This document shows, piece by piece, positions 1 through 13,944 of a DNA stretch of 64,000 bases (positions are counted from its first letter, which is position 1; the number at the start of each line of letters is the position of its first letter). Made by a program: the position numbers and the translations under genes. This DNA comes from Bordetella genomosp. 7 (GTDB lineage Bacteria; Pseudomonadota; Gammaproteobacteria; Burkholderiales; Burkholderiaceae_B), in the NCBI RefSeq assembly GCF_002261265.1, contig NZ_NEVK01000006.1, positions 248,001-312,000 on the forward strand, given 5' to 3'. The notes below the pieces were generated by a model, which was not told the DNA's origin, did not search any database, and saw only the letters and a list, made by a program, of their open reading frames with translations.

Positions 1-1215
1 TTCGGGGGTGACGAACAGTTCGTGGCGATACAGTTCCTGCGTGGCGATCACGTTGTCGCCCATGCCCGTGACTTCGGTCACCGACAGTACGCGGCGCTTG
101 CCGTTGGGCAACCGCCCGATCTGGATGATGAAGTCCAGCGCGCTGGCGATCTGGCGGCGCAGGCTGTCTTCGCTGCCCTGGAAACCGGCGAAACCCGCCA
201 GCATTTCGATGCGGTACAGGCATTCGCGCGGCGAATTGGCGTGGATCGTGGCCATGGAACCTTCATGCCCGGTGTTCATGGCCTGCAGCATGTCCATGAC
301 CTCGGCGCCGCGCACTTCGCCCACCACGACGCGGTCGGGCCGCATGCGCAGGCTGTTGCGGATCAGGTCCCGGATGGTGACCAGGCCGTCGCCGTCAAAG
401 CCGCCCTGGCGAGATTCCAGGCGCACCACGTGCGGATGGTTCAGCGACAGTTCGGCCGTGTCTTCGACCGTGACCACGCGCTCGGTACCCGGGATGAAAA
501 ACGCCAGCGCATTGAGCAGCGATGTCTTGCCCGAGCTGGTGCCGCCCGACACCAGGACGTTGCAGCGGTTGGCCACCGCCATGCTCAGCAGCCGGTGGAT
601 TTCTTCGTTGAATGTGCCCAGTGTCAGCAGGTCTGCCGGCTTGAGCGGGTCTTTGCGGAACTTCCGGATGGATACCATCGGCCCGTCGACGGCCAGGGGC
701 TCGATCACCACGTTCAGGCGGCCGCCGTCCGGCAGGCGCGCATCCACCATGGGGCAGGACTCATCCAGGCGGCGGCCGATGGGCGCCAGGATGCGGCGCA
801 CGATGCGCAGCACGTGCTGGTTGTCGGTAAAGCCCAGTTGTTCGCGCGCCAGCACGCCGCCGCGCGAGACAAACACATTGTCGTAGCCGTTGATGAGGAT
901 GTCTTCCACGGCGGGGTCGGCCAGCAGGTCTTCCAGCGGCCCCAGGCCGGCCAGTTCCTTGGTCAGGGCCTCGGCGATATGACGCATCTCGCTTTCGTTG
1001 ATGGCCACACGCCTGGTGCGCGCAAAACTGGCGACTTCGATGTCGACGAAATCCTGGATCGCTTCGCGCGCCCAGCGGCCGAATTCCGCGCCCAGCTCTT
1101 CGATGCGCGATAGCAGGTGTTCGTATGCCGCCGTCTTGACTTCCTGGTAGCGCTCCGAGCCCACAAAGCTCTTGTCGCCGTCGGGGCCGAACTGGATCGT
1201 GGCTGTCATGATCAT
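1..1215 (-). CDS. cpaF: Tad pilus assembly ATPase CpaF/TadA (3' end outside window)
   Basis: Hexameric secretion ATPase that powers Flp pilus assembly at the inner membrane. 405 codons are present and the C-terminus runs off the left edge, so roughly the last tenth of the family length is missing. Visible motifs: the conserved N-terminal segment VEDILINGYDNVFV, Walker A SGGTSSGKTSLLNAL, a Walker-B-like stretch RMRPDRVVVGEVRGAE, and the His-box region NTGHEGSMATIHANSP. The start is taken at ATG 1215, with AGGA five bases upstream; a second ATG lies two codons later at 1209. It starts 27 bases after cpaE ends, in the same transcriptional direction, as in other tad loci. The identification is firm; only the end is unseen. 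Confidence 0.95.
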   Translation of the reverse strand, partial: MIMTATIQFGPDGDKSFVGSERYQEVKTAAYEHLLSRIEELGAEFGRWAREAIQDFVDIEVASFARTRRVAINESEMRHIAEALTKELAGLGPLEDLLADPAVEDILINGYDNVFVSRGGVLAREQLGFTDNQHVLRIVRRILAPIGRRLDESCPMVDARLPDGGRLNVVIEPLAVDGPMVSIRKFRKDPLKPADLLTLGTFNEEIHRLLSMAVANRCNVLVSGGTSSGKTSLLNALAFFIPGTERVVTVEDTAELSLNHPHVVRLESRQGGFDGDGLVTIRDLIRNSLRMRPDRVVVGEVRGAEVMDMLQAMNTGHEGSMATIHANSPRECLYRIEMLAGFAGFQGSEDSLRRQIASALDFIIQIGRLPNGKRRVLSVTEVTGMGDNVIATQELYRHELFVTPE

Positions 1216-1242
1216 GTTGCGTCCTGTTGCCTGTCTGTGCCG

Positions 1243-2559
1243 TTAGCGGGCCACCACCATGCGCCGGTGCACGCCCGGCAGCCAAGTGGCCAGCCAGCTG
1301 CTGCGCCCCGAGGGCCGCGCGGTTTCGCTGCACAGCCTTTCCGCCAGCGCCTGCACGCCACGCACGTATACATCGCGCTCCGCGTCCTGGTGCAGCAGCC
1401 GTCCCTGGTTGGTGCACACCATCAGGGCAAGCGGGCGGTCCGGGAGCGTGCCGATGAGTTCGAGTTCGAACCGGTCGGCGATCTGCTGGGCGGTCATGCC
1501 GTAGCGTTCGTCGTAGCGATTGACCACCAGCCCCAGCGAACTGCGCTCGACCTGCTGGCGCTGCAGGTCCTGCAGCAAGCCTGCCAGCGCAACCAGGGAA
1601 CTGACGCTCTGGTCCGTGACGATCCAGCTCGCCGCGGAATTGCGCGCCAGCCTGGAAATGAATTCGATATTCGAGAACCCGCCCGTGTCGGTGACGACCA
1701 GGCCGAAGTACTGGCGCAAGCGCTCGAACACCAGCAGCGAATCCGACGGCGATACGTGGTTCATCTGGGACGGGTCGCGCGGCAGCGCCATCACGCTCAG
1801 GCCATCGCGGGTATGCGCCATGGCGGAAGCCAGCAGGGTCGCGTCCAGGCGTTGCAGATTGCGGGTCGCTTCGGCAAAGTCGAAATCGCTGGCCACGTTC
1901 ACATACAACTGCGCGTCGCCGATCGGCCAGCCCAGGTCAAGCAGGGCCACGCGCGACGACAACGGCAGCCCGGTATCCGCGCCGGCGTCTTTGCGCGCGC
2001 CGCCTTGTTCTGCGCGGGCCTGGGCAAAGCGGTCTTGCGTGATGCCGGCCAGATGCGCGGCCAGTGTGCTGGTGCCCACCCCCGCACGCGCGCCGATCAA
2101 CAGCACATCGCGCCGCGAGCCGCCTTCGGCACCGCCCGAGGGGGGCATGTCGAGCAGGCGCTGCACCACCTCGCGCACCTCGTGCGGCGCGACCGTGGGG
2201 TCGACAAAGTCCGTGACGCCCGCGCGCAACGCCGCGACCGCGCCCTCGGGCTGGCCCAGCAGCCCCACCGCCACTCGCGGTATGCCGGGCGCCACGCGCG
2301 CCAGCGTGCGGGCCAGGTCGGCCGAGCGCAGCAGCTTGCCCGGGTCGGCATTGCTGGCGGTGAAATCCAGGAAGATGATCTTGGGATCAATGTCCGACAG
2401 GCGCCTTCCCAACTGTTCGACAGAGGGCTGCTCTTGCGTCAGCACGCCTATGGGGCCCAGCGCCTCGACCAGCTGCGCGGCCACGGCATCGCCCTGGGAA
2501 CATAACAAGAACCGGACTCCGCTTTGCAGCCCGGGCAGTTCTGAAGAATGCGCCTTCAT
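1243..2559 (-). CDS. cpaE: Tad pilus localisation protein CpaE/TadZ, ParA-like
   Basis: 438-residue receiver-like plus ParA/MinD-like protein; in other bacteria CpaE/TadZ places the pilus machinery at the pole. The first ~130 residues look like a degenerate response-regulator fold (RFLLCSQGD start, IIFLDFTASN strand). A P-loop-like region, LLIGARAGVGTSTLAAHLAG, follows near residue 150 and then DLGWPIGDAQLYVNV. The P-loop lacks the lysines of a standard deviant Walker A (KGGVGKT), so ATP hydrolysis may be weak or absent. The start at ATG 2559 lies 5 bases after the cpaC stop; a longer in-frame reading to 2625 would run into cpaC and is not preferred. Confidence 0.88.
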   Translation of the reverse strand: MKAHSSELPGLQSGVRFLLCSQGDAVAAQLVEALGPIGVLTQEQPSVEQLGRRLSDIDPKIIFLDFTASNADPGKLLRSADLARTLARVAPGIPRVAVGLLGQPEGAVAALRAGVTDFVDPTVAPHEVREVVQRLLDMPPSGGAEGGSRRDVLLIGARAGVGTSTLAAHLAGITQDRFAQARAEQGGARKDAGADTGLPLSSRVALLDLGWPIGDAQLYVNVASDFDFAEATRNLQRLDATLLASAMAHTRDGLSVMALPRDPSQMNHVSPSDSLLVFERLRQYFGLVVTDTGGFSNIEFISRLARNSAASWIVTDQSVSSLVALAGLLQDLQRQQVERSSLGLVVNRYDERYGMTAQQIADRFELELIGTLPDRPLALMVCTNQGRLLHQDAERDVYVRGVQALAERLCSETARPSGRSSWLATWLPGVHRRMVVAR

Positions 2560-2564
2560 ATGGT

Positions 2565-3995
2565 TCACCGCGAAAAACCTGGTGCTTGTTGACCGCCGGC
2601 GGGGCCCATCAGGTAATAGCCCCATGCGTTGGTCATGGAATCGGTTCGCTCTTGCCGCTCGCCAGGCAGCGGCAATGCCACGCCACGCGCGATGGGCCGC
2701 ACCAGGCGCGGCGTCACCACGATGACGAGTTCGTGCTCTTCCTGCGAATACTCGATCCCCCGGAAGAACGCGCCGATGATGGGCAGCTCGCCCAGGAACG
2801 GCACCTTGTTGACCGACGCCTTGGTCTGCCTGGACACCAGCCCGCTGATGATGAAGCTCTCGCCATCGCCCAACTCAATGGTGGTATCGGCGCGGCGCGT
2901 GCGCAGCGCGGGAATCAACGTGGCTGTTTCACCGTTGAGGATCGGGATGCCGTTGACATAGTCCAGCTCGCTTGCTTCAGGCGCCACCTTCAGCGCAATG
3001 CGCTCGCGCGACAGCACCGTAGGCGTAACGGTCAGGCCTATGCCGAACGGCTTGAAGACGACGTTCTGCGTACCCAGCCCGCCCGACTCGGGAATGGGGA
3101 TCTCGCCGCCCGCCAGGAAGCTGGCGCTCTGCCCGCTCAGCGCCACCAGCGTGGGCTCGGCCAGCACCCGCGCCATGCCATTGGTCTGCAGCATGCGCAA
3201 TGTGGCGCCGAAGTTGTTCGAATCGAACAGCACGCTGAAGCCGTCGCCAAGCAGGCCGCGGCCGGGCAGCGCGCCCGGAACGGAAAGACTGCCCGGCGAG
3301 GTGCGGGCGCCGAACCCCCAGCTGCCCGCGCTGCCGGTCATGGACAATCCCACTTGCTTGAGCACCGAGCGGGACACTTCGACTACCTTGACTTCGACCT
3401 GGACGACGCCATTGGTGCCCGCCGTCGCGACATCCACCACCTTGTCCTCGCCCACCGCCGCCGCGGCCGCGGCCACGGAATTCTGATGCGACAGCGGCGA
3501 TGGCGCCTGGCCCGACACCACTGCATGAGCGCCCGCTACGTCCACGTTGGCGCCCCCGGCCTGTCCGCGGCGCGCCAGTTCCGACTGCACGGCGCCGCTG
3601 ACGCGCACCGTCCACACCATGGGGGTACGGCTGCCGCGCGCCCATACCTGCACCTCGGTCGACCCTGCCTTCTTGCCGATCAGCATCACCGCCGCGGGAC
3701 GGCCCGCGGCGGCGGGCAGCACCTTGACATCGGCGACGTCCGGGTCGGCCACGGCGATACGGGTCGGCGTGCCGGGCAAGGGAAGCAGATGCTGGCCCTT
3801 GACCGGCAGCGCCAGCTCCTGGGCGGCAGCCGGCGCCGGGGCGGCGTCGTTGGCGCGCGCCTGGGCGGCCACGCCGCCTGCATAGACAAGGCCGGCGACC
3901 GCCAGCGCGGAGCAAAGAAGAGAAGCGCGCATACGGGATGTGATCCGATTCGACATAGGTATGAAAAGCTCGCGACTGTGTAGGCTGGCGGCCAT
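2565..3995 (-). CDS. cpaC: Tad pilus outer-membrane secretin CpaC/RcpA
   Basis: Secretin that forms the outer-membrane channel for the Flp pilus. A signal peptide is visible (MRASLLCSALAVAGLVYAGG, ending near VAAQA), then the pilus N-terminal domain (VKGQHLLPLPGTPTRIAVAD), a BON-like stretch, and a C-terminal secretin domain with ELGDGESFIISGLVSR and VPFLGELPIIGAFFRG. The start is uncertain. ATG 3995 shares one base with the cpaB stop (TGATG) and has a GAG-type ribosome site, which suggests translational coupling. ATG 3956 and ATG 3932 would give a more usual signal-peptide n-region but lack a Shine-Dalgarno sequence. It sits between cpaB and cpaE in the standard order. Confidence 0.92.
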   Translation of the reverse strand: MAASLHSRELFIPMSNRITSRMRASLLCSALAVAGLVYAGGVAAQARANDAAPAPAAAQELALPVKGQHLLPLPGTPTRIAVADPDVADVKVLPAAAGRPAAVMLIGKKAGSTEVQVWARGSRTPMVWTVRVSGAVQSELARRGQAGGANVDVAGAHAVVSGQAPSPLSHQNSVAAAAAAVGEDKVVDVATAGTNGVVQVEVKVVEVSRSVLKQVGLSMTGSAGSWGFGARTSPGSLSVPGALPGRGLLGDGFSVLFDSNNFGATLRMLQTNGMARVLAEPTLVALSGQSASFLAGGEIPIPESGGLGTQNVVFKPFGIGLTVTPTVLSRERIALKVAPEASELDYVNGIPILNGETATLIPALRTRRADTTIELGDGESFIISGLVSRQTKASVNKVPFLGELPIIGAFFRGIEYSQEEHELVIVVTPRLVRPIARGVALPLPGERQERTDSMTNAWGYYLMGPAGGQQAPGFSR

Positions 3996-4954
3996 CAATA
4001 AGGCACTCGTTGCGTGGAATCGCCACGCAGGATTTCGATACTGCGCCCGCCGCCCGAACCGGCGCGCGCGGATCCCGTCCGTTTGACCGGCTGCGGCGCC
4101 GGGCCGTCGAGCTGCGCCAGGCTGTCGCCGGCATAAGCCCGGTTCGGACCAGCCTTCAGGGCTTCGCGCTGCTCCGGCGTCAGGCCGCTACGCTCGGGCA
4201 ACACTGCCTGGCGAACCGCGAACAGCTCGCGGTCCGGCAGCGTTTCATCGTCGGGCGCGCGCAGCGCCAATTGAATCTGGCCGGCACGGCTGGCGAGCAG
4301 CAGCTCGTTGACGTTTTCGATGGGCACGGCCAACAAGGCGGTGCGGGCGGGAGGCTGGGTCGCCGGACGCTGCACCGCGGGTTTATCGCCTTCGACGGGA
4401 GGGCCGTCGATAGACTCAGGCCCGTATGCCAGCACACGCACGCGCGACTGCAGCAGGCGCACCTGGCTGCCCTGCACTTCCTGGTCTTTCTTGAGCATGA
4501 AGAAAACATCGACCAGATCGCCCGGCATGATGCGGTTGCCCGCGCCGACGATTTCGTCCACCGGCACGGCTACCGCGCGCTCGCCCTCGTGCAGCTGGCG
4601 CGCCAAACCCTGGGCAAGCATCTGCCGGGTCACGGGCTCGCCGGGGGCGATGTCCAGGCGCACGACCTCACCGGCCAGATCTTCGGGCCGGACGTATCCG
4701 TGGCTCAGCGCCACGGGCCATTGCACGACCTCGAGCATGTCGGCTTCCAGGCGCGTGCCCGCGACCAGCGGCTTGGCGGCCAGCACCACCGGATACGTGG
4801 CCTGGGGCACTTTGGCTTCGGCGATGGCGGGCGCGGCGGGCGCAGGGGCCGGCGGCGCGGCGACGGGGCGGCTGGCCACGTAGTAGGCCAATGCCGCGAG
4901 CACAATACCTGCTGCCAGCAGAACGGCGGCGAGAATCTTACTAACGCCGGTCAT
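3995..4954 (-). CDS. cpaB: Tad pilus assembly protein CpaB/RcpC
   Basis: 319-residue periplasmic protein with an N-terminal membrane anchor (ILAAVLLAAGIVLAALAYYV), a proline/alanine-rich linker, and a SAF domain (PLVAGTRLEADMLEVVQWP to GEPVTRQMLAQGLARQL) followed by the RcpC region (VDEIVGAGNRIMPGDLVDVF). CpaB is thought to work with the secretin, possibly through cell-wall binding by the SAF domain. The ATG at 4954 overlaps the stop of the upstream TadE-like gene (ATGA), which decides the start over a longer in-frame reading to 5074. The C-terminal tail is Arg/Ser/Gly-rich. Confidence 0.92.
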   Translation of the reverse strand: MTGVSKILAAVLLAAGIVLAALAYYVASRPVAAPPAPAPAAPAIAEAKVPQATYPVVLAAKPLVAGTRLEADMLEVVQWPVALSHGYVRPEDLAGEVVRLDIAPGEPVTRQMLAQGLARQLHEGERAVAVPVDEIVGAGNRIMPGDLVDVFFMLKKDQEVQGSQVRLLQSRVRVLAYGPESIDGPPVEGDKPAVQRPATQPPARTALLAVPIENVNELLLASRAGQIQLALRAPDDETLPDRELFAVRQAVLPERSGLTPEQREALKAGPNRAYAGDSLAQLDGPAPQPVKRTGSARAGSGGGRSIEILRGDSTQRVPY

Positions 4955-5445
4955 AGCGGCTCCTGTGTAATTTGAATGGTCGCACGAGCGGATAACGTTT
5001 GCGGAATAAGCGAAGCCTGGCCACCGCGGGAGGCAAGGTCCAATAAGCTCTGGAACGATCTCAGCAGCGGCCACTGCGTCACGTCATAACGCAGCACGAC
5101 GGACATGCAACCCACCGCCGACCCGTCGGCGGCGGTCCAGGCGCAGGCAAACGGCGCGGCTGTGCGGTTGCACTCCACCTTGCTGCCCGGGCCGAATACG
5201 TTCACCGCCGCATCGCAGGCGATTGCCTGCACATCGGGCTGGCCCGCGTATTGCGCCTGCAGGCCGGCGCGCGCGCCCTCGCCCGCTGCGCCCGACAGCT
5301 GTTGCTGGGCCCAGAAAATTGCGCCATAGCCCACGATGCTCAGCAAGATCAGCAGCATCAGGGTGAGCACCATGGCGAACTCGATCGCTGCCACGCCGCG
5401 TTGGCGTTGCCGGGATGCGCGCAGGGGAACTTGCCTTGCCCGCAT
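4951..5445 (-). CDS. TadE-like pseudopilin (first copy)
   Basis: 164 residues with the TadE/TadF signature: a basic N-terminus (RASRQRQRG), the prepilin-like processing region GVAAIEFAMVLTLMLLILL with the conserved Glu at position +5 type, and one transmembrane helix followed by a periplasmic domain. Four cysteines in the C-terminal part (IACDAA, VECNRT, FACAW, VGCMS) could form disulfides. TadE proteins are minor pseudopilins processed by the TadV/CpaA peptidase. It ends in an ATGA overlap with cpaB and starts one base after the second TadE-like gene ends. Which of the two corresponds to TadE and which to TadF cannot be told from sequence alone. Confidence 0.85.
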   Translation of the reverse strand: MRARQVPLRASRQRQRGVAAIEFAMVLTLMLLILLSIVGYGAIFWAQQQLSGAAGEGARAGLQAQYAGQPDVQAIACDAAVNVFGPGSKVECNRTAAPFACAWTAADGSAVGCMSVVLRYDVTQWPLLRSFQSLLDLASRGGQASLIPQTLSARATIQITQEPL

Positions 5446-5446
5446 G

Positions 5447-5995
5447 TCAGCTCCCCGGAGCGGCGGCCAGGCTGCCCAGCCGCACGGCGGCGCGCGCGTG
5501 CAATTGCGCAGGCACGATGGCCCGCTGAATGAGCGGAAGATTCGGAATCAATGGTTGGGCGCCATAGGCATAGCTGACCACCACCTCTATCCATTCGGGG
5601 TCGTCCGCCGGTATCAGGCCGCTGCAGTTGCCGCCGTTGGCGTGGCTCAAACGCCCGTTGCCGCTGCAGACCGCGACCGACAGCGGCTCTCCGGAGATCG
5701 TGGTGATCCAGTCGGCGCGCTCCAGCGCGACATTGCGCGCCGCGTCGGCGCGCAACTGCATGTGCGTGGCGCCGGGCTGCCATTGCAGGGCCTTGCGCGC
5801 CGCATCCTGCGCGGCCAGGTTCAACGACTGCTGGGCCGTGAATATCATTCCGTACATCATGATGCCGTAGAGCACCAGGAAAAACGCCAGGAAGATCAGC
5901 GCGAACTCCACAGCATAGGCGCCACGCTGAGCGCGCCCAATGCCAGGTATGTGGCGTACGGCACCTGGCGCAGACGTTGCGGCAGCGCCCGCCAA
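5447..5995 (-). CDS. TadE-like pseudopilin (second copy, unusual start)
   Basis: The conserved part is clear: QRGAYAVEFALIFLAFFLVL followed by YGIMMYGMIFTAQQSLNLAA, the TadE processing motif plus transmembrane helix, then a periplasmic domain to residue ~180. No ATG exists near the expected start. The coordinates use an in-frame TTG at 5995, which places the start about 100 bases inside the 3' end of the prepilin peptidase gene. An ATT at 5941 would give a 164-residue protein starting just before the motif, the same length as the first copy, and a GTG at 5911 would cut into the motif. The gene is real on composition and family match; the start is not settled. Confidence 0.75.
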   Translation of the reverse strand: MAGAAATSAPGAVRHIPGIGRAQRGAYAVEFALIFLAFFLVLYGIMMYGMIFTAQQSLNLAAQDAARKALQWQPGATHMQLRADAARNVALERADWITTISGEPLSVAVCSGNGRLSHANGGNCSGLIPADDPEWIEVVVSYAYGAQPLIPNLPLIQRAIVPAQLHARAAVRLGSLAAAPGS

Positions 5996-6441
5996 CGCGA
6001 AACCGCCAGGTATATCGCCGCATGCAGGCCGGCCAGCAGGGTGCCCGCGGCGAGCACCCAGCACAGGTACTTCAGGCCGAACACCAGCCCATAGGCGGCG
6101 ATGACTTTCACATCCCCCGCGCCCATGATGCGGCGCGTCCATAGCGGCAGGAATGCAAGGGCGGCCAGGAACCCGGCGATGGCCCAGCCCCAGCCCGGCC
6201 ACAATGGCGGATACGCCCAGCCGGGCGCCACGCTGGCGGCTATCGACCACAGCACCTGAAAGCAGACGGCGGCCACCACCAGCACGTTCGGAACCCTGCG
6301 ATGGCGCCAGTCGGCTGCCATCAGCAGTACGTTCCAGAGTACGAACAATAGCCACCACAACGATTCCCCAAGGTACAACCGAACACCCTTGTGTCTGATC
6401 TGTCGGATTGAACGCAGGCGCCACGCAGCCGACGTCAACAC
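5896..6441 (-). CDS. cpaA: A24 prepilin peptidase CpaA/TadV
   Basis: Inner-membrane aspartyl protease that cleaves the Flp prepilin and TadE/F pseudopilins. 181 residues from GTG 6441, about the usual size for the short TadV form that lacks a methylase domain. Both catalytic aspartates are in view: MAADWRHRRVPN (xxDxxxxxxPN type) and MGAGDVKVIAAYGL (the GxGD motif). Around five hydrophobic helices follow. The start is uncertain: GTG 6441 gives a basic N-terminal tail (RSIRQIRHKGVRLYLGE) and a downstream TTG would start closer to the first helix. Its 3' end overlaps the likely start of the second TadE-like gene. Confidence 0.85.
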   Translation of the reverse strand: MLTSAAWRLRSIRQIRHKGVRLYLGESLWWLLFVLWNVLLMAADWRHRRVPNVLVVAAVCFQVLWSIAASVAPGWAYPPLWPGWGWAIAGFLAALAFLPLWTRRIMGAGDVKVIAAYGLVFGLKYLCWVLAAGTLLAGLHAAIYLAVSRWRALPQRLRQVPYATYLALGALSVAPMLWSSR

Positions 6442-6512
6442 GACATGCGGGCGTTTTCCCGCATGTCGTTCGCTTCAGCAGTGCGACGGCAATCCCGCGT
6501 CGACTGTGGGTA

Positions 6513-6704
6513 TTACGGCGTCGTGGTGCCGCCGCTGAGGGTTGTCAGTTTTGCGGAAATCGTACCGAAGAAATCTTCGAGCCCATCGGTCAGCGCCGTA
6601 ATCACGACAGCCAACCCCGCCACCAGCAAGGCCGCGAGAATCGCGTATTCGAGCGTGGTCACGCCCTCTTCATCGTTCCAGAACTGCAAGAATTGCTGCT
6701 TCAT
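6513..6704 (-). CDS. flp: Flp-type major pilin
   Basis: 63-residue type IVb pilin subunit of the Tad pilus. The leader MKQQFLQFWNDEEG ends in the G|xxxxE processing context (EEGVTTLEYAILAALLVAG), followed by a single hydrophobic helix and a short Thr/Gly-rich tail ending TTTP. The ribosome site GGGAGAGAG lies just upstream of ATG 6704, the strongest in this operon, as expected for the most abundant product. It is the first pilus gene of the operon and is followed by the prepilin peptidase about 70 bases on. Confidence 0.93.
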   Translation of the reverse strand: MKQQFLQFWNDEEGVTTLEYAILAALLVAGLAVVITALTDGLEDFFGTISAKLTTLSGGTTTP

Positions 6705-6741
6705 TTTCTCTCTCCCATGCGTATGCATGACTTACGGTTTT

Positions 6742-6795: not shown

Positions 6796-7626
6796 TTATC
6801 CGCGCCCCAGCGGCTGCGCCAGGCCATTGCCTGCGCCTCCGGGAGCACCAGATCCAATCAGCACGTCCACACGCTGCGCCATCTTCTGGCGAAACCGCAA
6901 GGACGCGCGGTGTAACTGCCAGCGCAGCAGCGCCAGCGTAACGATCGACAACGCAAACACCACATAAGGCAGCGACGACCCGCCGACGAGCCAGCCTGCG
7001 AACTCGCGCGGCGCCGTGCACACCATCACGCCCGCCGCGGCGGCGCTGTAGTGCATGCCGCACACGGCAAAAGCCATGACCGCTGCGGCCATCGCGCGCT
7101 GCCGTGCCGTGTGCACGTTGAACGCCAGCCACAATGCGGCGACGGCCGCCACCACAGCCACCACCACCGACAGCACGACCAACGGCAAGCTCCACTGGAA
7201 CACCGCGGGTATGCGCATGGCTGCGATTCCTACGTAATGCATCGCCGCGACGCCCAGGCCGGCCAACACCCCGCCAGCCACGCATCGCCATACGGCAAAG
7301 CGCGCACGGGCCACGTACCAGAGCGCGGCACCCGAGCACAGCACCGCCAGCAAGAAACTCAGCGCGGTAAGCGCCACGTCGTAGCCGGCGGAAAACGGCA
7401 TGGCCTGCGCCTGCATCCCGACGAAATGCATACTCCAGATGCCGATGCCGCCCATTGCCACCGCTGCGATCCCCACATACGGCAACCAGGGCTGGCCATC
7501 GGCGACGGCGGCGCGAACATGGGCTGCGGCGGTCAAGGCGACGTAGGCCCCGAACCCGGCCAACAGGAACGACAGCATCACTACGCCGGGTGCGAATGAC
7601 AGGGGAACGGTTTCGCCGGGAATCAT
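6796..7626 (-). CDS. MHYT-domain integral membrane sensor, no output domain
   Basis: 276-residue polytopic membrane protein. Three MHYT-type motifs are seen, each at the periplasmic end of a helix: WSMHFVGM (~residue 65), AAMHYVGI (~125) and CGMHYSAA (~190). MHYT domains are proposed to sense diatomic gases through bound metal. Here there is no GGDEF, EAL or kinase domain; after seven predicted helices only a short basic tail remains (HRASLRFRQKMAQRVDV). The family function is not experimentally settled. It is transcribed toward flp with a 91-base gap and could be co-transcribed with the pilus genes, perhaps as a signalling input. No clear Shine-Dalgarno precedes ATG 7626. Confidence 0.85.
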   Translation of the reverse strand: MIPGETVPLSFAPGVVMLSFLLAGFGAYVALTAAAHVRAAVADGQPWLPYVGIAAVAMGGIGIWSMHFVGMQAQAMPFSAGYDVALTALSFLLAVLCSGAALWYVARARFAVWRCVAGGVLAGLGVAAMHYVGIAAMRIPAVFQWSLPLVVLSVVVAVVAAVAALWLAFNVHTARQRAMAAAVMAFAVCGMHYSAAAAGVMVCTAPREFAGWLVGGSSLPYVVFALSIVTLALLRWQLHRASLRFRQKMAQRVDVLIGSGAPGGAGNGLAQPLGRG

Positions 7627-7779
7627 GAGTGAACGTGTACGTTGCGCGGCTGTCTGGGCTGCTCACTGCGGCCGTGGCGAGCGTCCGTCTGCCGCGAGCC
7701 CTGATCAGGAACAAGAGCGCGGGCGCTACACATCGGCACAACTGGAACAGGCTTATTTCTAGTCGTTTCGCTACGGTTA

Positions 7780-7879
7780 TTACGTAAATTGTTTATTTAT
7801 TTCCGACTATCCTATCCTATCCGGGCAATATGTCTAGATAATGATTGAAACCGACAACAAAATGCAGCATATACGTTAC
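7780..7879 (+). promoter_or_regulatory. TTACGTAA palindrome and ACGTTAC motif upstream of the TpsB-like gene
   Basis: TTACGTAA at 7780-7787 is an exact 8-base palindrome, and ACGTTAC at 7873-7879 is the reverse complement of GTAACGT. The same words (GTTACGTAAC, GTAACGT, GTAACAT) cluster upstream of the lipoprotein gene at 9823-9875. Possible binding sites for a shared regulator; the MarR protein at 11686 is one candidate. This is inference only. Confidence 0.4.
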
Positions 7880-7902
7880 ATATTGCTAATTTTCAAGCCT
7901 GG

Positions 7903-7938
7903 AAACCATACAGATAAGAGAAATATGTATGGTTTTTT
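7903..7938 (+). terminator. Intrinsic terminator in the leader of the TpsB-like gene
   Basis: Nine-base arms AAACCATAC (7903-7911) and GTATGGTTT (7927-7935) with a 15-base loop run into a TTTTTT tract (7933-7938). It ends 107 bases before the start codon at 8046 on the coding strand. There is no plus-strand gene upstream for it to terminate, so it could act as an attenuator. Confidence 0.6.
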
Positions 7939-8045
7939 AACGTCAAGGTGTCGGTAGCTTTTGCGTTATGGCAACATTCGAAATTCTTAGTATTGTTTCT
8001 GTTGCGAGCGGGCGCACCACGTAGCGGACCGCCGCCTTTGTTGCT

Positions 8046-9770
8046 ATGCGGCCCAATCCTGCTTCTGTGCGTACCGGCATCCTTGCCACCTCCACCCTCG
8101 CAATCCTGGTCTGCGGCCCCGCCTATGCGGACGGCCCCTTGCGCGGCAACCCGGTAGACGCGATGCCGCGCATACAAACGCCCGCCAATACGGGGGCTCC
8201 GCAGGCGCAGCCCGCGTTGCAAGCGCCCACCCCCGAACAACAGGCCGTGCAGGCGCTGCTGGCGCAACGCATCGTGCCGAGCAATTTCGATGTGTCCGGC
8301 GTACGTGCGCTGCCCTTTGACGAGGTGGCAGCCATACTGACACCGCTAGCGGGCAAGCAGACCACGATCGGCGCCCTGGTGGCAGAAGTCGACAAGATCA
8401 CGGCGCTGTATCGCGAACGAGGCTATCCGCTGTCGTTCGCGCTGCTGCAGAACCAGAGCTTCGCCAACGGACTGGTGGTTGTTACGGTGGTGGAAGGCTA
8501 TATCGGGCAGGTGCGCATCGACGGCGACATCGGCAATGCGCGCGATCGCCTGGAAGACCTTGCGGCGCCGTTGATGGAAGAACGGCCCCTGACACAGGCA
8601 ACGCTGGAGCGTGTGCTGAATTTGATGCGCACCGTACCGGGCGTGCGTTTCGAGCCGGCGCTGGACTTGCCGCGGCGGGCCGACGGCGCCACTGAACTGG
8701 TGCTGAACGCCACCCGCCGCCCCGTCACGGCCGATGGCGGCGTGGCCGACCTGGGCACCGGCATGCAGCCGCTGGTCAACGTGGGCACCAACAGCCTGAC
8801 GCCGCTGGGCGAGCAGGTGCGGCTTACTGCCAGCGTACCGCTCAACAGTGACGATGTACGCTATGTGGCCGCCGCCATCACCGTGCCGCTGGGCGCCGAC
8901 GGGCTGGCGCTGCATGTGGATGCCCATCACTACAATTCCCACCCGCAGGATGATGCGGTGGAGCGGCTGGGGTACGACCGCGAAGTCACCAACAACCGTC
9001 TGGCCGTTGCGTTGAGCTACCCCCTGCTGCTGAACAACCGGCGGTCGCTGACCGCGACGGCAGGCGTGTACGCCGTGGATGCGAAAGATCGCTACGAGGC
9101 GCGCGCAAACGACAACTGGCTGCAGCAGGACGTGGACGTGCGCGCGGCGACCGCGGAATTGCGTTACCGCGACGTGCTGCCCACGCGGTCCACCGAAATC
9201 GGGCTGGGCGTGTCGCAGGGCTTCAATGCGGCGGGCGCCAGCAAGACCGTGAAGACCAACTATGGCTACACCGGCGTACCCGACGTAAGCCTGAATTTCA
9301 CGCGGTACAACCTGGATGTGCGGCAAACGTTCAGCCTGCCCGCGCAGTTCGGGCTGGTGCTGAGCGGCGCTGGCCAGTACAGCGACGACATACTGCCCAG
9401 TTCGGAACAAGTGTCGTATGGCAGCTGGCGATACGCCATGGGCTATCCGCAAGGCGAAAAGAGCGGCGACAAAGGCGTGGGCGTGTCCGCCGAAATCAAC
9501 CGCCGCTTCAATGTGGGCTGGACCTACCTGAACAGCGTGCAACCCTATGCCATGGTGGACTACGCCCGCACCTGGTACAACAACAGCACGATCCAGAAAA
9601 ACAACCCCGGCCACCTGTCGTCTGTTGGCCTTGGCCTGCGCTTCACCGACGACAAGCATTACCTGTTCGACTTCAACGTCGCCAAGCCGGTGGGCGCGCG
9701 CACGGCGGACGACGACGACCGCGGCTTGCGCTTCAACGCCAACTACTCGTTGTTCTACGACGCCTTCTGA
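8046..9770 (+). CDS. TpsB/ShlB/FhaC-family outer-membrane transporter
   Basis: 574 residues, the usual length for two-partner-secretion transporters. A signal peptide (TGILATSTLAILVCGPAYA), a proline-rich linker, and a POTRA_2 domain (FDVSGVRALPFDEVAAILTP to VVEGYIGQVRIDGDIG, ~residues 75-170) precede a ShlB-type domain and a 16-strand-like barrel ending FNANYSLFYDAF with terminal Phe. The L6-loop region reads YAMGYPQGEKSGDKGVG, so the usual VRGY/F arginine appears replaced, while SGDKG is kept. TpsB proteins normally export a large TpsA exoprotein; none is encoded beside it. The next gene is a repeat lipoprotein. The start has no good Shine-Dalgarno site. Confidence 0.88.
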   Translation: MRPNPASVRTGILATSTLAILVCGPAYADGPLRGNPVDAMPRIQTPANTGAPQAQPALQAPTPEQQAVQALLAQRIVPSNFDVSGVRALPFDEVAAILTPLAGKQTTIGALVAEVDKITALYRERGYPLSFALLQNQSFANGLVVVTVVEGYIGQVRIDGDIGNARDRLEDLAAPLMEERPLTQATLERVLNLMRTVPGVRFEPALDLPRRADGATELVLNATRRPVTADGGVADLGTGMQPLVNVGTNSLTPLGEQVRLTASVPLNSDDVRYVAAAITVPLGADGLALHVDAHHYNSHPQDDAVERLGYDREVTNNRLAVALSYPLLLNNRRSLTATAGVYAVDAKDRYEARANDNWLQQDVDVRAATAELRYRDVLPTRSTEIGLGVSQGFNAAGASKTVKTNYGYTGVPDVSLNFTRYNLDVRQTFSLPAQFGLVLSGAGQYSDDILPSSEQVSYGSWRYAMGYPQGEKSGDKGVGVSAEINRRFNVGWTYLNSVQPYAMVDYARTWYNNSTIQKNNPGHLSSVGLGLRFTDDKHYLFDFNVAKPVGARTADDDDRGLRFNANYSLFYDAF

Positions 9771-9794
9771 TCCTTTCGACGCCGTCCTGGCGTA

Positions 9795-9818
9795 GGGCCC
9801 GCCCGGCGTTGCGGGCCC
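9795..9818 (+). terminator. GC hairpin after the TpsB-like gene
   Basis: GGGCCCGC (9795-9802) pairs with GCGGGCCC (9811-9818) across an 8-base loop, 25 bases after the stop codon. No T tract follows, so it is a terminator-like hairpin rather than a classic intrinsic terminator. Confidence 0.45.
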
Positions 9819-9822
9819 GCGC

Positions 9823-9875
9823 GTTACGTAACATCACAGGAAACGTAACGTCATGTACCCCTGAAACCGTAACAT
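9823..9875 (+). promoter_or_regulatory. Cluster of GTAAC motifs upstream of the lipoprotein gene
   Basis: GTTACGTAAC (9823-9832, a perfect 10-base palindrome), GTAACGT (9845-9851) and GTAACAT (9869-9875) recur in a 53-base stretch. Related words lie upstream of the TpsB-like gene, suggesting co-regulation of the two. No regulator is assigned by sequence alone. Confidence 0.45.
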
Positions 9876-10093
9876 TCGCAGCGACCGGAACGTCGCTAAT
9901 TTGCCAATTTCGCTTTTAAGAAAACTTCTTTGATTAGCCGGTTAGTCGTTGATTAAAAAGAGATTTTCCTGCGCTATCACATCTCGTATTTCTGCGATTT
10001 TCCAGTTGAATCAAAAGTTGGCACGGATTGTGCTTTGAAGTGGGTGTAACCGGTGCATAACCGCGCCGTCTCGTCCACAACAGGAGTGCAATC

Positions 10094-11656
10094 ATGTCTG
10101 CGAATTCTTCCGACGTACGTCGCGTCTCACGCGTGTTGGCCAAGTCGGCCATGGTAGTGGCTCTGGCCGCCGCTCTTGCCGCCTGCGGCGGTGGCAGCGG
10201 CGGCGGCAAGAAGTCGGCCGGGCTGCCCGGCGGCGGCGGGGGCGGCGGCGGTGGCAACCCGCCGGCGGGCCTGCCGGCCGGATTGCTGGAAACGACGCTG
10301 GGCAATACCGGCGACGCGGTCGACAATGCCCTGCCGCTGCAACTGGGCGATGCGCTGGGCGGCGTCGGCAAGTCGCTGGACCCGACCCTGGCGCCGGTGG
10401 TTGACACGGTTACCGGGCTGACCCAGCAAGTTGGCGCGGCCACTGGCTTGGGCGCGCCGGTCGACGGCGTGCTGACCCAAGTCGGCGGCGTCGTCAGCAA
10501 TCTGGGAGATACCGTATCCGGCACCGGCCTGCCCGGCGGCCTGGACACCGGCGTGGGCGGCCTGGTCAGCGGCCTGGGCGACACCGTCGCCAGCGTGGGC
10601 GGCCTGCTCAATGCCGACCCCGACAATCCTCAACCCCTGACCACCGTGCTGGGCAACGCCACCAATGCAGTGGGCGCGCTGACCGGCGGCCTGGCTGGCG
10701 AAGGCGGCCTGCTCAACCCGGTCACGGGCCTGGTGGGCGGATTGACCGCCGGCCTGGGAGACGGCAACACGTTGCCTATTCTGGAGCCGACGCTGGGCAA
10801 CACCGGCACGGCCGTCGACAACATCCTGCCGCTGGGCCTGAACCCGGCCCTGGGCGGCGTGGGTAAAAGCCTCGACGGCGTAGTCAGCCCCGTGGCCGGC
10901 CAGGTCGTCAGCCTGACGCAGCAAGTCGGCGGCGCGACCGGCCTGGGCGCTCCGGTGGCCGGGCTGCTGACGCAGATCGGCGGCACCCTGGCCGGCGCCA
11001 ACGGCGCGCTGCCCGACGGCACCCCGCTCGACGGCGTACTGAGCAACCTGGGCAATGCGGTTGCCAGCCTGGGCGGAGTGCTGCACGCCACTCCGCAGAA
11101 CCCCAACCCGCTGGGCGGCACGCTGGGCGGCGTGACCGGCGCGGTGGCTTCGTTGACCGGCAGCCTGGGCGGCGTGACGGGCGGCGGCGAAGGCGGGCTG
11201 CTCGCTCCGGTTACCGGCCTGCTGGGTGGCCTGGGTGGCGGTAACGGCGGCGCCAACGGCGGCCTGCTGGCTCCTGTCACCGGCCTGGTCGGCGGCCTGA
11301 CCGGCGGCCTGGGTGGCGGCACGGGCGGCGCCAATGGCGGCCTGCTGGCCCCCGTCACCGGACTGGTCGGCGGCTTGACCGGCGGCCTGGGCGGCGGCAA
11401 CGGCGGCTCCAACGGCGGCCTGCTGGCTCCCGTCACCGGCCTGGTCGGCGGCTTGACCGGCGGCCTGGGTGGCGGTAACGGCGGCGCCAATGGCGGCCTG
11501 CTGGCTCCCGTCACCGGCCTGGTGGGTGGCCTGACCGGCGGCCTGACGGGTGGAACGGGCGGCGGCACGGGCGGCGCTGGCGGCAATGCCAGCGGCGGCC
11601 TGCTGGGCGGACTGCTGGGCGGCGTGCTCGGCGGCCTGGGCGGCGGCGCCAATTAA
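10094..11656 (+). CDS. Glycine-rich tandem-repeat surface lipoprotein
   Basis: 520 residues of unrecognised function. An export signal ends in the lipobox LAAC (Cys31), followed by Gly-rich tracts. Residues 64-228 and from 229 form a tandem duplication: TLGNTGDAVDNALPL pairs with TLGNTGTAVDNILPL, and TQQVGAATGLGAPVDG with TQQVGGATGLGAPVAG. From ~367 on come 26-residue repeats of the type GGLLAPVTGLVGGLTGGL plus GGGNGGAN. Charged residues are very rare and there are no aromatics in the repeats. Automated pipelines may call it collagen-like, but Gly is not every third residue. It follows a TpsB-like transporter and precedes a MarR gene. A role as a secreted or surface-exposed structural protein or adhesin is inference. 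Confidence 0.8.
   Translation: MSANSSDVRRVSRVLAKSAMVVALAAALAACGGGSGGGKKSAGLPGGGGGGGGGNPPAGLPAGLLETTLGNTGDAVDNALPLQLGDALGGVGKSLDPTLAPVVDTVTGLTQQVGAATGLGAPVDGVLTQVGGVVSNLGDTVSGTGLPGGLDTGVGGLVSGLGDTVASVGGLLNADPDNPQPLTTVLGNATNAVGALTGGLAGEGGLLNPVTGLVGGLTAGLGDGNTLPILEPTLGNTGTAVDNILPLGLNPALGGVGKSLDGVVSPVAGQVVSLTQQVGGATGLGAPVAGLLTQIGGTLAGANGALPDGTPLDGVLSNLGNAVASLGGVLHATPQNPNPLGGTLGGVTGAVASLTGSLGGVTGGGEGGLLAPVTGLLGGLGGGNGGANGGLLAPVTGLVGGLTGGLGGGTGGANGGLLAPVTGLVGGLTGGLGGGNGGSNGGLLAPVTGLVGGLTGGLGGGNGGANGGLLAPVTGLVGGLTGGLTGGTGGGTGGAGGNASGGLLGGLLGGVLGGLGGGAN
10283..11200 (+). repeat. Tandem duplication of a ~165-codon module
   Basis: Inside the lipoprotein gene, codons 64-228 (10283-10777) resemble the following ~140 codons (10778-11200) almost end to end: each begins with LE(T/P)TLGNTG, contains GGVGKSLD and TQQVG(A/G)ATGLGAPV, and ends in GGLL(N/A)PVTGL. 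This points to an old internal duplication. Confidence 0.7.
11192..11569 (+). repeat. Direct repeats of 78 bases in the lipoprotein gene
   Basis: Units begin at 11192 (short, 66 bases), 11258, 11336, 11414 and 11492. The full units are 78 bases (26 codons) and nearly identical in DNA, with mainly synonymous changes. Such arrays can change copy number by slippage or recombination. Confidence 0.85.
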
Positions 11657-11685
11657 CCGGATCGGCGGACAAAGGAGAGTGAACC

Positions 11686-12231
11686 ATGCTGCAGCTGGCT
11701 TCGACCCCGTACCTTGGCCGCCCTTTCGCCTCGGTTTCTGAAAGTGACGAGAATCGGCCTGGCATGATCGACGAAATTGCAGTGATGCTGGGGCGGCAGT
11801 TCGCCGCCTACACGGCAGCGTGCCAGGCATCGTTGTCGGAAAAGATGGGCATTGCGCTGGCGGACCTGAAGGCGTTGGACCTCGTGCTGGAATTCGAGTC
11901 CCTGCCGACCGGCCAGCTGGCGCAATTGCTGGGCATCAGCCCCGGCGGCGCCACCGCACTCATCAACCGGTTGGAAGAGGCCGGATATGTCGAGCGCGGC
12001 CGCCACCCGCTGGACCGCCGGATCATCGTGATCCGGCCGGTGCAGGAGCAGTGCCAGGCGCTGCTGGCCGAACGCCAGGCAATCGCCCGCGAAGTGACGC
12101 TATTGGCGCGCAACTTCGATACCGCGCAACTGGAAACCATCCAGAGCTTCTTGTCGCAATGCCTGAAGGCCTTGCGGCACGACACGCGCGTATGGCTGGA
12201 AACCCGCCACATGCGCGGGCTTGACGGCTGA
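11686..12231 (+). CDS. MarR-family transcriptional regulator
   Basis: 181-residue winged-helix repressor-type protein. The HTH is visible at LPTGQLAQLLGISPGGATAL with INRLEEAGYVERGRH next, and the wing HPLDRRIIVIRP, flanked by helices for dimerisation. It has a longer N-terminus (~35 residues, MLQLASTPYLGRPF...) than many MarR proteins. An AGGAG ribosome site precedes ATG 11686 and the gene lies 29 bases after the glycine-rich lipoprotein gene in the same direction, so the two are probably co-transcribed. It may control the lipoprotein and the TpsB-like gene through the GTAAC motifs upstream of both; this is inference. Confidence 0.85.
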   Translation: MLQLASTPYLGRPFASVSESDENRPGMIDEIAVMLGRQFAAYTAACQASLSEKMGIALADLKALDLVLEFESLPTGQLAQLLGISPGGATALINRLEEAGYVERGRHPLDRRIIVIRPVQEQCQALLAERQAIAREVTLLARNFDTAQLETIQSFLSQCLKALRHDTRVWLETRHMRGLDG

Positions 12232-12258
12232 ACGGGCCGGGGCAAGCGCGCTGGCTCG

Positions 12259-13944
12259 CTAGCGCGCTTGCCCGAATGCCAGCCGTGGAACCGCCGCCAG
12301 CAGGCGGCGGGTCATTTCGTGCCGCGGCGCATGCAACACCGCATCGGCACTGCCCTCTTCCACGATCTGACCGCCATGCATGATGGCGATGCGATCCGCC
12401 AGATATTCCACGACGCCGAAGTTGTGGGTAATGAACAGATAGGCAATACCCAACTCGGCCTGCAGCTCGCGCAGCAGGTCCAGGATCTGCGCCTGCACTG
12501 ACACATCGAGCGCGGACGTGGGCTCGTCGCATATCAAGACCCGGGGCTCCACCGCCAATGCGCGCGCGATGGCGATGCGCTGGCGCTGCCCGCCGGAAAA
12601 TTCGTGCGGGTAACGGGCCGAGGTATCGGCCGGCAGACCGACGCGCCGCAAGAGATCCTGCACGCGCTCGCGCCGCTGCGCCTCGGGCATGTGCGGCTTC
12701 AGCGTGGCGATGCCCTCGTCAAGGATATCGCCCACCCGCATGCGCGGGTTCAATGACGCGTAAGGATCCTGGAATACGATCTGGATGTCCTGGCGAAGCC
12801 TGCGCAATTCGCGGCGGCCGGCATGCAGCAGGTCTTGCCCGTCCAGCAGCGCGCTGCCGCTTACCTTGGCGCCTTCAACCAGCCGCAGCAAGGCCTTGCC
12901 GGTGGTGGTCTTGCCGCAACCCGACTCGCCGAGCAGGGCCAGGGTTTCACCCGCCCTGAGGGTGAAGGTCACGCCATTGACAGCCTGCACCCACGAATCG
13001 ATGCGGCGCAGCAGGCCCTTGCGCACCGGATAGTGCACCAGCAGGTTCTGCACGTCGAGCACAACATCGCCGGCAGCCGGACGCGACGCGCAAGCGCCGG
13101 ACGCCGCCGGCGCGGCCGACTGGCCGCCTGCCAGCGGCCGGCCGCGCTTTTCATAGCTGGGAATCGCGTCGAACAACTGACGGGCATAGGGGTGTCGCGG
13201 CGCCTCGAAAAAAACGTCTGCCGGCGCGCTTTCAACAATTTCGCCGCCGCGCATCAGCGCCACGTGCTGGGCCACATTGCGCACCACCGCCAGGTCGTGC
13301 GTAATCAGAAGAATGGCCATGCCGATATCACGCTGGATATCGGCAAGCAGTTCCAGCACCTGCGCCTGCACGGTAACGTCCAGCGCCGTGGTCGGTTCAT
13401 CGGCAATCAGCAGCGCCGGCTCGGCCGCCAGCGCAATGGCAATCATGATGCGCTGCTTCTGCCCGCCGGAAAACTGGAACGGGTAGTCGTCGATGCGACG
13501 TTCGGGATCGGGAATGCCCACGCGCCGCAGCCAGTCGATCGCCCGCGCGCGCGCGGCCGAGCCCCGAAGCGATGTATGCGCCGCGAGCGTTTCCAGTATC
13601 TGGTCGCCCACACGCATGACCGGGTTCAGGCTGGTGGAGGGCTCCTGGAAGATGATGCCGATGCGTCCGCCGCGCACCCCGCGCATGGCGCTTTCGGTCA
13701 ACTGGTTCAGGTCTTGCCCGTCAAGCGCGACTTGCCCGCCCACGATGCGGCCGGCGTCAGGCAGCAGGCGCAGCATCGCCAGCGCTGTCATGCTCTTGCC
13801 GCAGCCCGACTCGCCCACCAGCGCGAAGGTCTCGCCGCGCCGGATGGCCAGCTGCAGTCGCTTGACCGCATGCGTCAGGCCGGCATCGCCCGCGATGGCG
13901 ACGTCCAGGCCGTCGACGGCCAGCAAAGGTTGGGCCGGGCTCAT
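12259..13944 (-). CDS. Peptide ABC importer, fused dual ATP-binding subunit (YejF-like)
   Basis: 561 residues containing two complete ABC ATPase domains in tandem. Domain 1 has Walker A VGESGCGKS, signature FSGGQKQR and Walker B LLIADEPTTALD. Domain 2 has LGESGCGKTTTGKALL, FSGGQRQRIAIARAL and VLICDEPTSALD. Oligopeptide-transporter C-terminal extensions (RHPYARQLFDAIPSY) follow domain 1. E. coli YejF has the same two-domain layout. The ATG at 13944 overlaps the permease stop (ATGA), which sets the start. This is the last gene of the four-gene importer operon. The substrate is probably a peptide or peptide-like compound, by family only. Confidence 0.93.
   Translation of the reverse strand: MSPAQPLLAVDGLDVAIAGDAGLTHAVKRLQLAIRRGETFALVGESGCGKSMTALAMLRLLPDAGRIVGGQVALDGQDLNQLTESAMRGVRGGRIGIIFQEPSTSLNPVMRVGDQILETLAAHTSLRGSAARARAIDWLRRVGIPDPERRIDDYPFQFSGGQKQRIMIAIALAAEPALLIADEPTTALDVTVQAQVLELLADIQRDIGMAILLITHDLAVVRNVAQHVALMRGGEIVESAPADVFFEAPRHPYARQLFDAIPSYEKRGRPLAGGQSAAPAASGACASRPAAGDVVLDVQNLLVHYPVRKGLLRRIDSWVQAVNGVTFTLRAGETLALLGESGCGKTTTGKALLRLVEGAKVSGSALLDGQDLLHAGRRELRRLRQDIQIVFQDPYASLNPRMRVGDILDEGIATLKPHMPEAQRRERVQDLLRRVGLPADTSARYPHEFSGGQRQRIAIARALAVEPRVLICDEPTSALDVSVQAQILDLLRELQAELGIAYLFITHNFGVVEYLADRIAIMHGGQIVEEGSADAVLHAPRHEMTRRLLAAVPRLAFGQAR

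Follow-up and report, generated by a model that had tools for sequence, protein, structure and literature searches.

Type Vb secretion systems such as FhaC/FHA and CdiB/CdiA combine a TpsB-type outer-membrane transporter, which has an ShlB barrel, a POTRA domain and the arginine of a VRGY/F motif at its L6 tip, with a TpsA partner that carries a TPS domain. The lipid-anchored autotransporters NalP and SphB1 show that a type V passenger can be lipidated, although they are single-chain type Va proteins, unlike a transporter and lipoprotein encoded as a pair. Lipid-anchored proteins are also moved by the outer-membrane barrels of the Slam family (DUF560; PMC9090332), and Collagen_mid lipoproteins have been published as Bcc-CLP adhesins (PMC10224339, PMC10303873); these papers and those named below are cited from excerpts. 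In the present study, a window of 64,000 nucleotides from Bordetella genomosp. 7 (contig NZ_NEVK01000006.1, positions 248,001 to 312,000) was analyzed, in which genes for a TpsB-like transporter, a glycine-rich repeat lipoprotein and a MarR-family regulator follow one another on the forward strand (Table 1). We moderately favor the reading, drawn from sequence comparison, that the first two form a surface-display module, in which the TpsB-like Omp85 transporter would display at least one lipid-anchored, glycine-rich repeat adhesin of the Bcc-CLP family beside a Tad/Flp pilus locus.

In the Bcc-CLP region (BCAL1524 and BCAL1523 with BCAL1522), as in the window, genes for Collagen_mid lipoproteins lie next to an flp pilus operon. 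The genes bcal1524, 1523, 1522 and 1520 have been described as a possible operon beside flp genes (PMC10224339) and BCAL1524-1520 as a putative operon in a pilus cluster partly controlled by quorum sensing (PMC2753556), and BCAL1520, 1523 and 1524 are induced, with flp genes, by contact with host-membrane vesicles (PMC7970998). Outer-membrane vesicles contained BCAL1524, and a deletion mutant autoaggregated less and showed altered virulence in wax-moth larvae (PMC10303873). BCAL1522, the outer-membrane protein gene of the candidate operon, is listed as heme-utilization related (PMC10224339); judged by size and place, it is probably the counterpart of the window transporter. Unlike the present account, the excerpts of PMC10224339 and PMC10303873 mention no TpsB role, sigma-54 promoter or palindrome, and in the open-licence papers searched no TpsB-type transporter was found named as the partner of a Collagen_mid lipoprotein. 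The system had been put forward as undescribed, a description that no longer holds for the lipoprotein family and, within that literature, still holds for the transporter as its partner.

All three open reading frames were confirmed, including a TpsB-like transporter without a TpsA. Its nearest named records were from Bordetella petrii (87% identity) and Bordetella sp. (85%). The ShlB (65.6 bits) and POTRA_2 (61.7 bits) matches each exceeded the curated cut-off, with one POTRA domain detected, and the profile alignment with CdiB (6wim) covered positions 34-528 of 568. In this architecture the window transporter resembles FhaC and CdiB, and it aligns along most of the latter. Unlike in type Vb, the window genome yielded no TPS-domain match, the partner is a lipoprotein, and the L6-tip residue, the arginine of VRGY/F in other sampled TpsBs, is Met465. 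This arginine is kept in 4 of the 34 clade rows from the own order, in all 6 clade rows from outside it and in 22/22 other TpsBs, and because of the latter two counts its loss was probably derived within the transporter clade. The Asp partner of the L6 arginine is variable (Asn394 in the window), at a position where the alignment is unsure in other TpsBs. Among Pfam matches up to E 0.1, ShlB and POTRA_2 were the only ones returned and the Slam/DUF560 domain was not found; the transporter would share with Slam the movement of lipid-anchored proteins by an outer-membrane barrel, but belongs to a different family. Since the searches for a TPS partner and for a Slam domain were both negative, the module was filed under neither type Vb nor Slam.

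To the pairing of the two genes, the surveys gave a consistent answer. The first sample comprised 151 genomes of the window's own family (transporter threshold E 1e-127 or better), and the second 100 genomes of family f31 (threshold E 1e-25). In the first, the transporter was present in 41 genomes and Collagen_mid in 42, with both in 40 and neither in 108. The discordant genomes were G141, with the transporter only (550 contigs), and G037 (3.6-kb contig) and G147 (below cut-off), with the lipoprotein only. All 40 pairs were linked, 36 in wide loci and 4 in short ones (L040, L041, L054, L056), and the genes were adjacent in every wide locus except L120, where the MarR gene lies in between. In f31, the transporter and Collagen_mid occurred in the same 46 genomes and neither in the other 54; seven genera mix both kinds of genome, and no genome had one gene alone. 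The pair lay within 5 kb in 40 of the 46 genomes and was unlinked in six, all of genus g146, where no such lipoprotein was found within 14 kb around the transporter; this separation is real in G459 because that genome is a single contig.

Wider surveys extended the pairing. An order survey of 250 genomes (threshold E 1e-30) gave 13 matches, including three in first-family genomes; among the other ten, L162-L168 carry glycine-rich lipobox proteins beside the transporter, with one open reading frame between in L168. The lipoproteins of L166-L168 have no Collagen_mid match, but LAPVT-type repeats, and within L162-L168 a pairwise search with the window lipoprotein recovered only L162-L166. A phylum survey of 398 genomes (threshold E 1e-40) gave 14 matches, of which six came from families f55 and f58, beyond the own order; at these six loci the lipoprotein was found by pairwise search in four, and in L257 by lipobox and glycine content only. 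In a tree, 40 such transporters were separated from 22 other TpsBs (including L170 and L171) with a support of 100/100, and L169, L261 and some others stood on long branches. The pairing was kept through gene-order changes (Tad-transporter-lipoprotein, lipoprotein-transporter-Tad and Tad-lipoprotein-transporter were all seen) and through loss of flanking genes. On this co-occurrence, nearly free of exceptions, the transporter and the lipoprotein are very probably functional partners, and the partnership suggested in the original prediction was strengthened. Rare co-occurrence in related genomes and a distant TpsA gene, which it had named as contrary outcomes, were both looked for, and neither was found.

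The lipoprotein also proved to be as described, with a lipobox, few charges, Gly/Leu-rich composition and tandem repeats. It contains 31% Gly and 17% Leu and no W, Y or F, and the mature chain holds 24 K/R/D/E residues. The PF15984 Collagen_mid match (66.8 bits against a cut-off of 31.1) places it in the Bcc-CLP family, with the best stretch spanning profile positions 92-197 of 198, and the window lipoprotein matches the profile in part only. It is not a triple-helix collagen, because its longest run of Gly-X-Y (Gly-X-X) triplets is 4; PF01391 gave no match. Against solved structures, two weak matches only were obtained (E 0.0036 and 0.0052), which were judged to be low-complexity chance. A lipobox was present in 90 of the 96 homologues, and residue +2 was never Asp; the six misses comprised two wrongly picked starts, one non-standard box and three proteins with none. 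As side observations, a transporter-near lipoprotein at L168:4412-6124 has true collagen triplets (PF01391) fused to LAPVT repeats, unlike that of the window, and glycine-rich relatives with no lipobox, apparently with ordinary signal peptides, adjoin lipobox members at L110:10322-11128, L111:10771-11814 and L164:7672-8505.

Alternatively, the lipoprotein could assist or plug the transporter, in the way LptE serves LptD, and the exported substrate would be a different one, such as a product related to Tad. Tight pairing, the Tad neighborhood, the lipid anchor and the loss of the VRGY arginine in most own-order members would all suit such a role. However, f31 genomes carry 1 to 5 Collagen_mid matches against a single transporter in 44 of the 46, the lipoproteins differ widely in length and repeats, and one homologue has a role in autoaggregation (PMC10303873); for these reasons the lipoprotein appears substrate-like rather than subunit-like. 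Moreover, pairs with no Tad gene in the fetched stretch (L106, L107, L166-L168, L258-L260) speak against a Tad product, and this alternative is considered rather unlikely. Translocation of the lipoprotein as a substrate would be the most economical mechanism, because to this substrate-like variation are added a lipobox of the outer-membrane type and the surface-linked homologue; we hold it with a confidence slightly better than even.

The lipoprotein gene, moreover, has the predicted features of a sigma-54 gene, namely a -24/-12 promoter and an upstream activator site. Promoters were scored with consensus weights, and the upstream-region sets contain near-duplicate species (69 of the 94 lipoprotein regions are left after thinning). 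A promoter of at least 29/33 was found in 81/94 lipoprotein regions, compared with 0/82 transporter and 3/67 MarR regions (shuffles, 0.6%). The palindrome GTTACGTAAC was exact in 71/94 lipoprotein regions and present with at most one mismatch in 84/94 (shuffles, 1.9%), and 76 of the 83 sites in a 300-bp scan lay 207-286 bases before the lipoprotein start. The motif TTACGTAA occurs twice in the window (7780 and 9824), one copy upstream of each gene, as had been claimed; the transporter copy is conserved only in close relatives: among 81 homologous 450-bp regions, five contain it (the window, L002, L037, L136 and L137). An intrinsic terminator lies ahead of the palindrome in 31 of 67 transporter-lipoprotein gaps (shuffles, 0.6%); in the window itself none was recognised, and sigma-70 promoter and terminator matches were at chance level. 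The idea of one co-regulated unit built on GTAAC/TTACGTAA was therefore abandoned, as the palindrome array and sigma-54 promoter are features of the lipoprotein gene and a terminator comes first in those 31 gaps.

Elsewhere the signals were less regular. Among ten unlinked f31 genes, promoter and palindrome were found together in four; at L276 the promoter is accompanied by a palindrome with two mismatches. Neither was recognised at the g146 loci L215 and L216, where another choice of start shows the L216 site cluster, nor, single sites apart, at outside-order and f25 genes. TTGATT, an IHF-like sequence, lies between palindrome and promoter in 35/94 regions, a count made with no control and not claimed as a site. 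An Rfam search of 7400-12800 gave no riboswitch or other known RNA, and the leader fold was ordinary (z -0.88).

In the own genome, a sigma-54 activator lies beyond the Tad genes, at the end of a series made up, in this order, of TadA, two T2SSF proteins, one TPR protein and one TadG-like protein. In L247 and L248, which represent one family each, the activator was found 5 to 6 kb beyond TadA, and the recognition helices are near-identical; it was not found in L249 by a motif scan and was thus present in 3 of the 4 regions examined. This activator is the likeliest reader of the GTTACGTAAC site, as judged from these positions and motifs.

A reading in which MarR binds the GTTACGTAAC palindrome and controls both genes was also weighed. 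The window MarR, whose family was confirmed by Pfam, retains a D-R-R stretch conserved among relatives. A MarR gene is present in 32 of the 36 first-family loci (of the four lacking it, L127 is truncated where its contig ends), and at L108-L112 and L114 it is duplicated with the lipoprotein gene in tandem as a cassette behind one transporter. In L215 and L216, from the two of the six g146 genomes that were examined, the lipoprotein-MarR cassette adjoins Tad and the transporter is elsewhere; L106 and L107, furthermore, lack MarR, Tad and palindrome alike. Among 13 transporter-bearing genomes outside the first family, however, strong MarR relatives (227 bits) were found only in G420 and G459, both of g146, the other 11 having none or weak matches of at most 47 bits; G428, a genome without the transporter, has a match of 79 bits. 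The palindrome (at most one mismatch) is nevertheless kept at L162, L163, L165, L209, L210, L212 and L214, whose genomes have MarR matches of no more than 47 bits as against 227 in the two cassette genomes, and the site before the transporter is not conserved. MarR was rejected as the general reader because the palindrome is kept in genomes with no close MarR relative, and its control of both genes is quite improbable. As a member of the unit, MarR held up in the first family and failed in those 11 of 13 genomes outside it.

An ordinary TpsA from another place in the genome was also considered as the transporter's partner. The transporter is an ShlB-family protein, and 28 of the 41 first-sample clade genomes carry some TPS-domain protein, as such a partner would require. 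The own genome has one ShlB-family gene, and PF05860 found no match in it, in a search whose built-in controls were silent; this negative is credible because the identical search was positive in 67/151 family genomes. PF05860 was likewise unmatched in 12 further clade genomes (13/41 in all), and the clade is separate from the 22 other TpsBs, which makes a distant TpsA very improbable.

The Tad pilus locus beside the genes had been overlooked in the original prediction. Two or more Tad genes were present in the retrieved stretch of 33/36 first-family loci, L106, L107 and L120 (which begins at a contig end) being those without, as well as in 34/34 named loci longer than 8 kb, 4/8 order loci (L162-L169), 8/14 f31 transporter loci and 2/6 outside-order loci; some species are shared by the named and first-family sets. 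That the transporter and lipoprotein are unrelated neighbors travelling with the Tad locus, as the conserved Tad-MHYT-transporter-lipoprotein-MarR-ABC block of close relatives might suggest, is barely credible, since the pairing outlives changed gene order and loss of flanks and holds in g146 though unlinked.

Table 1. Positions of the features discussed, given in window coordinates unless a locus is named.
Feature	Position	Strand	Remark
TpsB-like outer-membrane transporter, 574 residues	8046..9770	+	Pfam ShlB and POTRA_2
Transporter features	POTRA_2, residues 79-151; ShlB barrel, 244-533		signal peptide; conserved GNPVDxLP segment
Palindrome GTTACGTAAC (9823-9832) and GTAAC half sites (9845, 9869)	9823..9873	+	presumed upstream activating sequence of lipoprotein gene
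Predicted sigma-54 type -24/-12 promoter TGGCACGGATTGTGCT	10019..10034	+	GG 10020-10021, ten bases, GC 10032-10033; score 31.5/33
Glycine-rich repeat lipoprotein, 520 residues	10094..11656	+	lipobox LAAC, Cys31 codon 10184-10186
Two Collagen_mid stretches in lipoprotein gene	10292-10615 and 10643-11086	+
78-bp tandem repeat, 4.1 copies	11228..11545	+	encodes lipoprotein LAPVTGLVGG repeat
MarR-family regulator, 181 residues	11686..12231	+	Pfam MarR above cut-off; starts 29 bp past lipoprotein gene
MHYT-domain membrane protein	6796..7626	-	between Tad locus and transporter; many close relatives
Tad/Flp pilus locus	1..6728	-
Flp pilin; CpaA-like peptidase; two TadE-like genes	6513-6728; 5896-6441	-	Tad locus
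CpaB/RcpC; secretin; TadA-like ATPase	3995-5074; 2565-3998; 1-1215	-	Tad locus
Gene in TadZ position	1243-2625	-	no Pfam match; presumably TadZ, by position
Sigma-54 activator, PF00158 and HTH_8 (Fis-type helix-turn-helix)	L246:10952-12376, left of window		right after TadG-like gene, then DUF2968 gene

Several observations weigh against the surface-display reading. The lipoprotein has no TPS domain, and lipid anchoring is unusual in type Vb. According to the review PMC5422565, FhaC cannot be active without the arginine of the L6 VRGY/F motif, and because this residue is replaced in 30 of the 34 own-order clade rows, the clade pore may work differently or not transport. The Fisher values for co-occurrence (6e-33 and 1e-29) are inflated by shared ancestry, and no weight was put on them. 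In f31, 60 of the 134 Collagen_mid matches lie more than 6 kb from the transporter or on another contig; the candidate lipoprotein of L169 is on the opposite strand about 2.4 kb away, and the distant clade member L261 has no recognisable lipoprotein beside its transporter. The palindrome occurs 3 times in the own genome compared with 7 times for the reversed control pattern and is thus not enriched; one of its two further copies resembles part of a terminator hairpin. In Burkholderia, deletion of BCAL1524 left biofilm and antibiotic susceptibility unchanged and its surface location was deduced from vesicle gels (PMC10303873), while BCAL1523 is predicted in the cytoplasmic membrane (PMC10224339).

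Under the display reading, the lipoprotein would pass the inner membrane by Sec, be lipidated and reach the outer membrane by Lol. The POTRA domains would then take up the unfolded glycine-rich chain via a non-TPS signal, perhaps the Collagen_mid region, and the chain would be threaded through the barrel with the lipid retaining it on the cell, as a lipid-anchored counterpart of type Vb. One transporter would probably serve several lipoproteins; the activator and sigma-54 would turn the adhesin on, plausibly along with the pili, and the displayed repeats would promote cell-cell adhesion.

Surface routes for Gram-negative lipoproteins are known in few systems, and this transporter clade with its lipoprotein family offers a two-gene test of another. 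The broader proposal, to which we give an even chance, is an unrecognised proteobacterial route of lipoprotein display, in which a dedicated TpsB-like clade, apart from Slam and classical type Vb, would export glycine-rich repeat lipoproteins with no TPS domain, several per transporter, and these adhesins would be switched on by sigma-54 along with Tad pili. If true, a TpsB-like pore would recognise a substrate that has no TPS domain. Moreover, the display of Burkholderia adhesins such as BCAL1524 would be explained, and these adhesins would be linked to Tad pili by predicted sigma-54 control.

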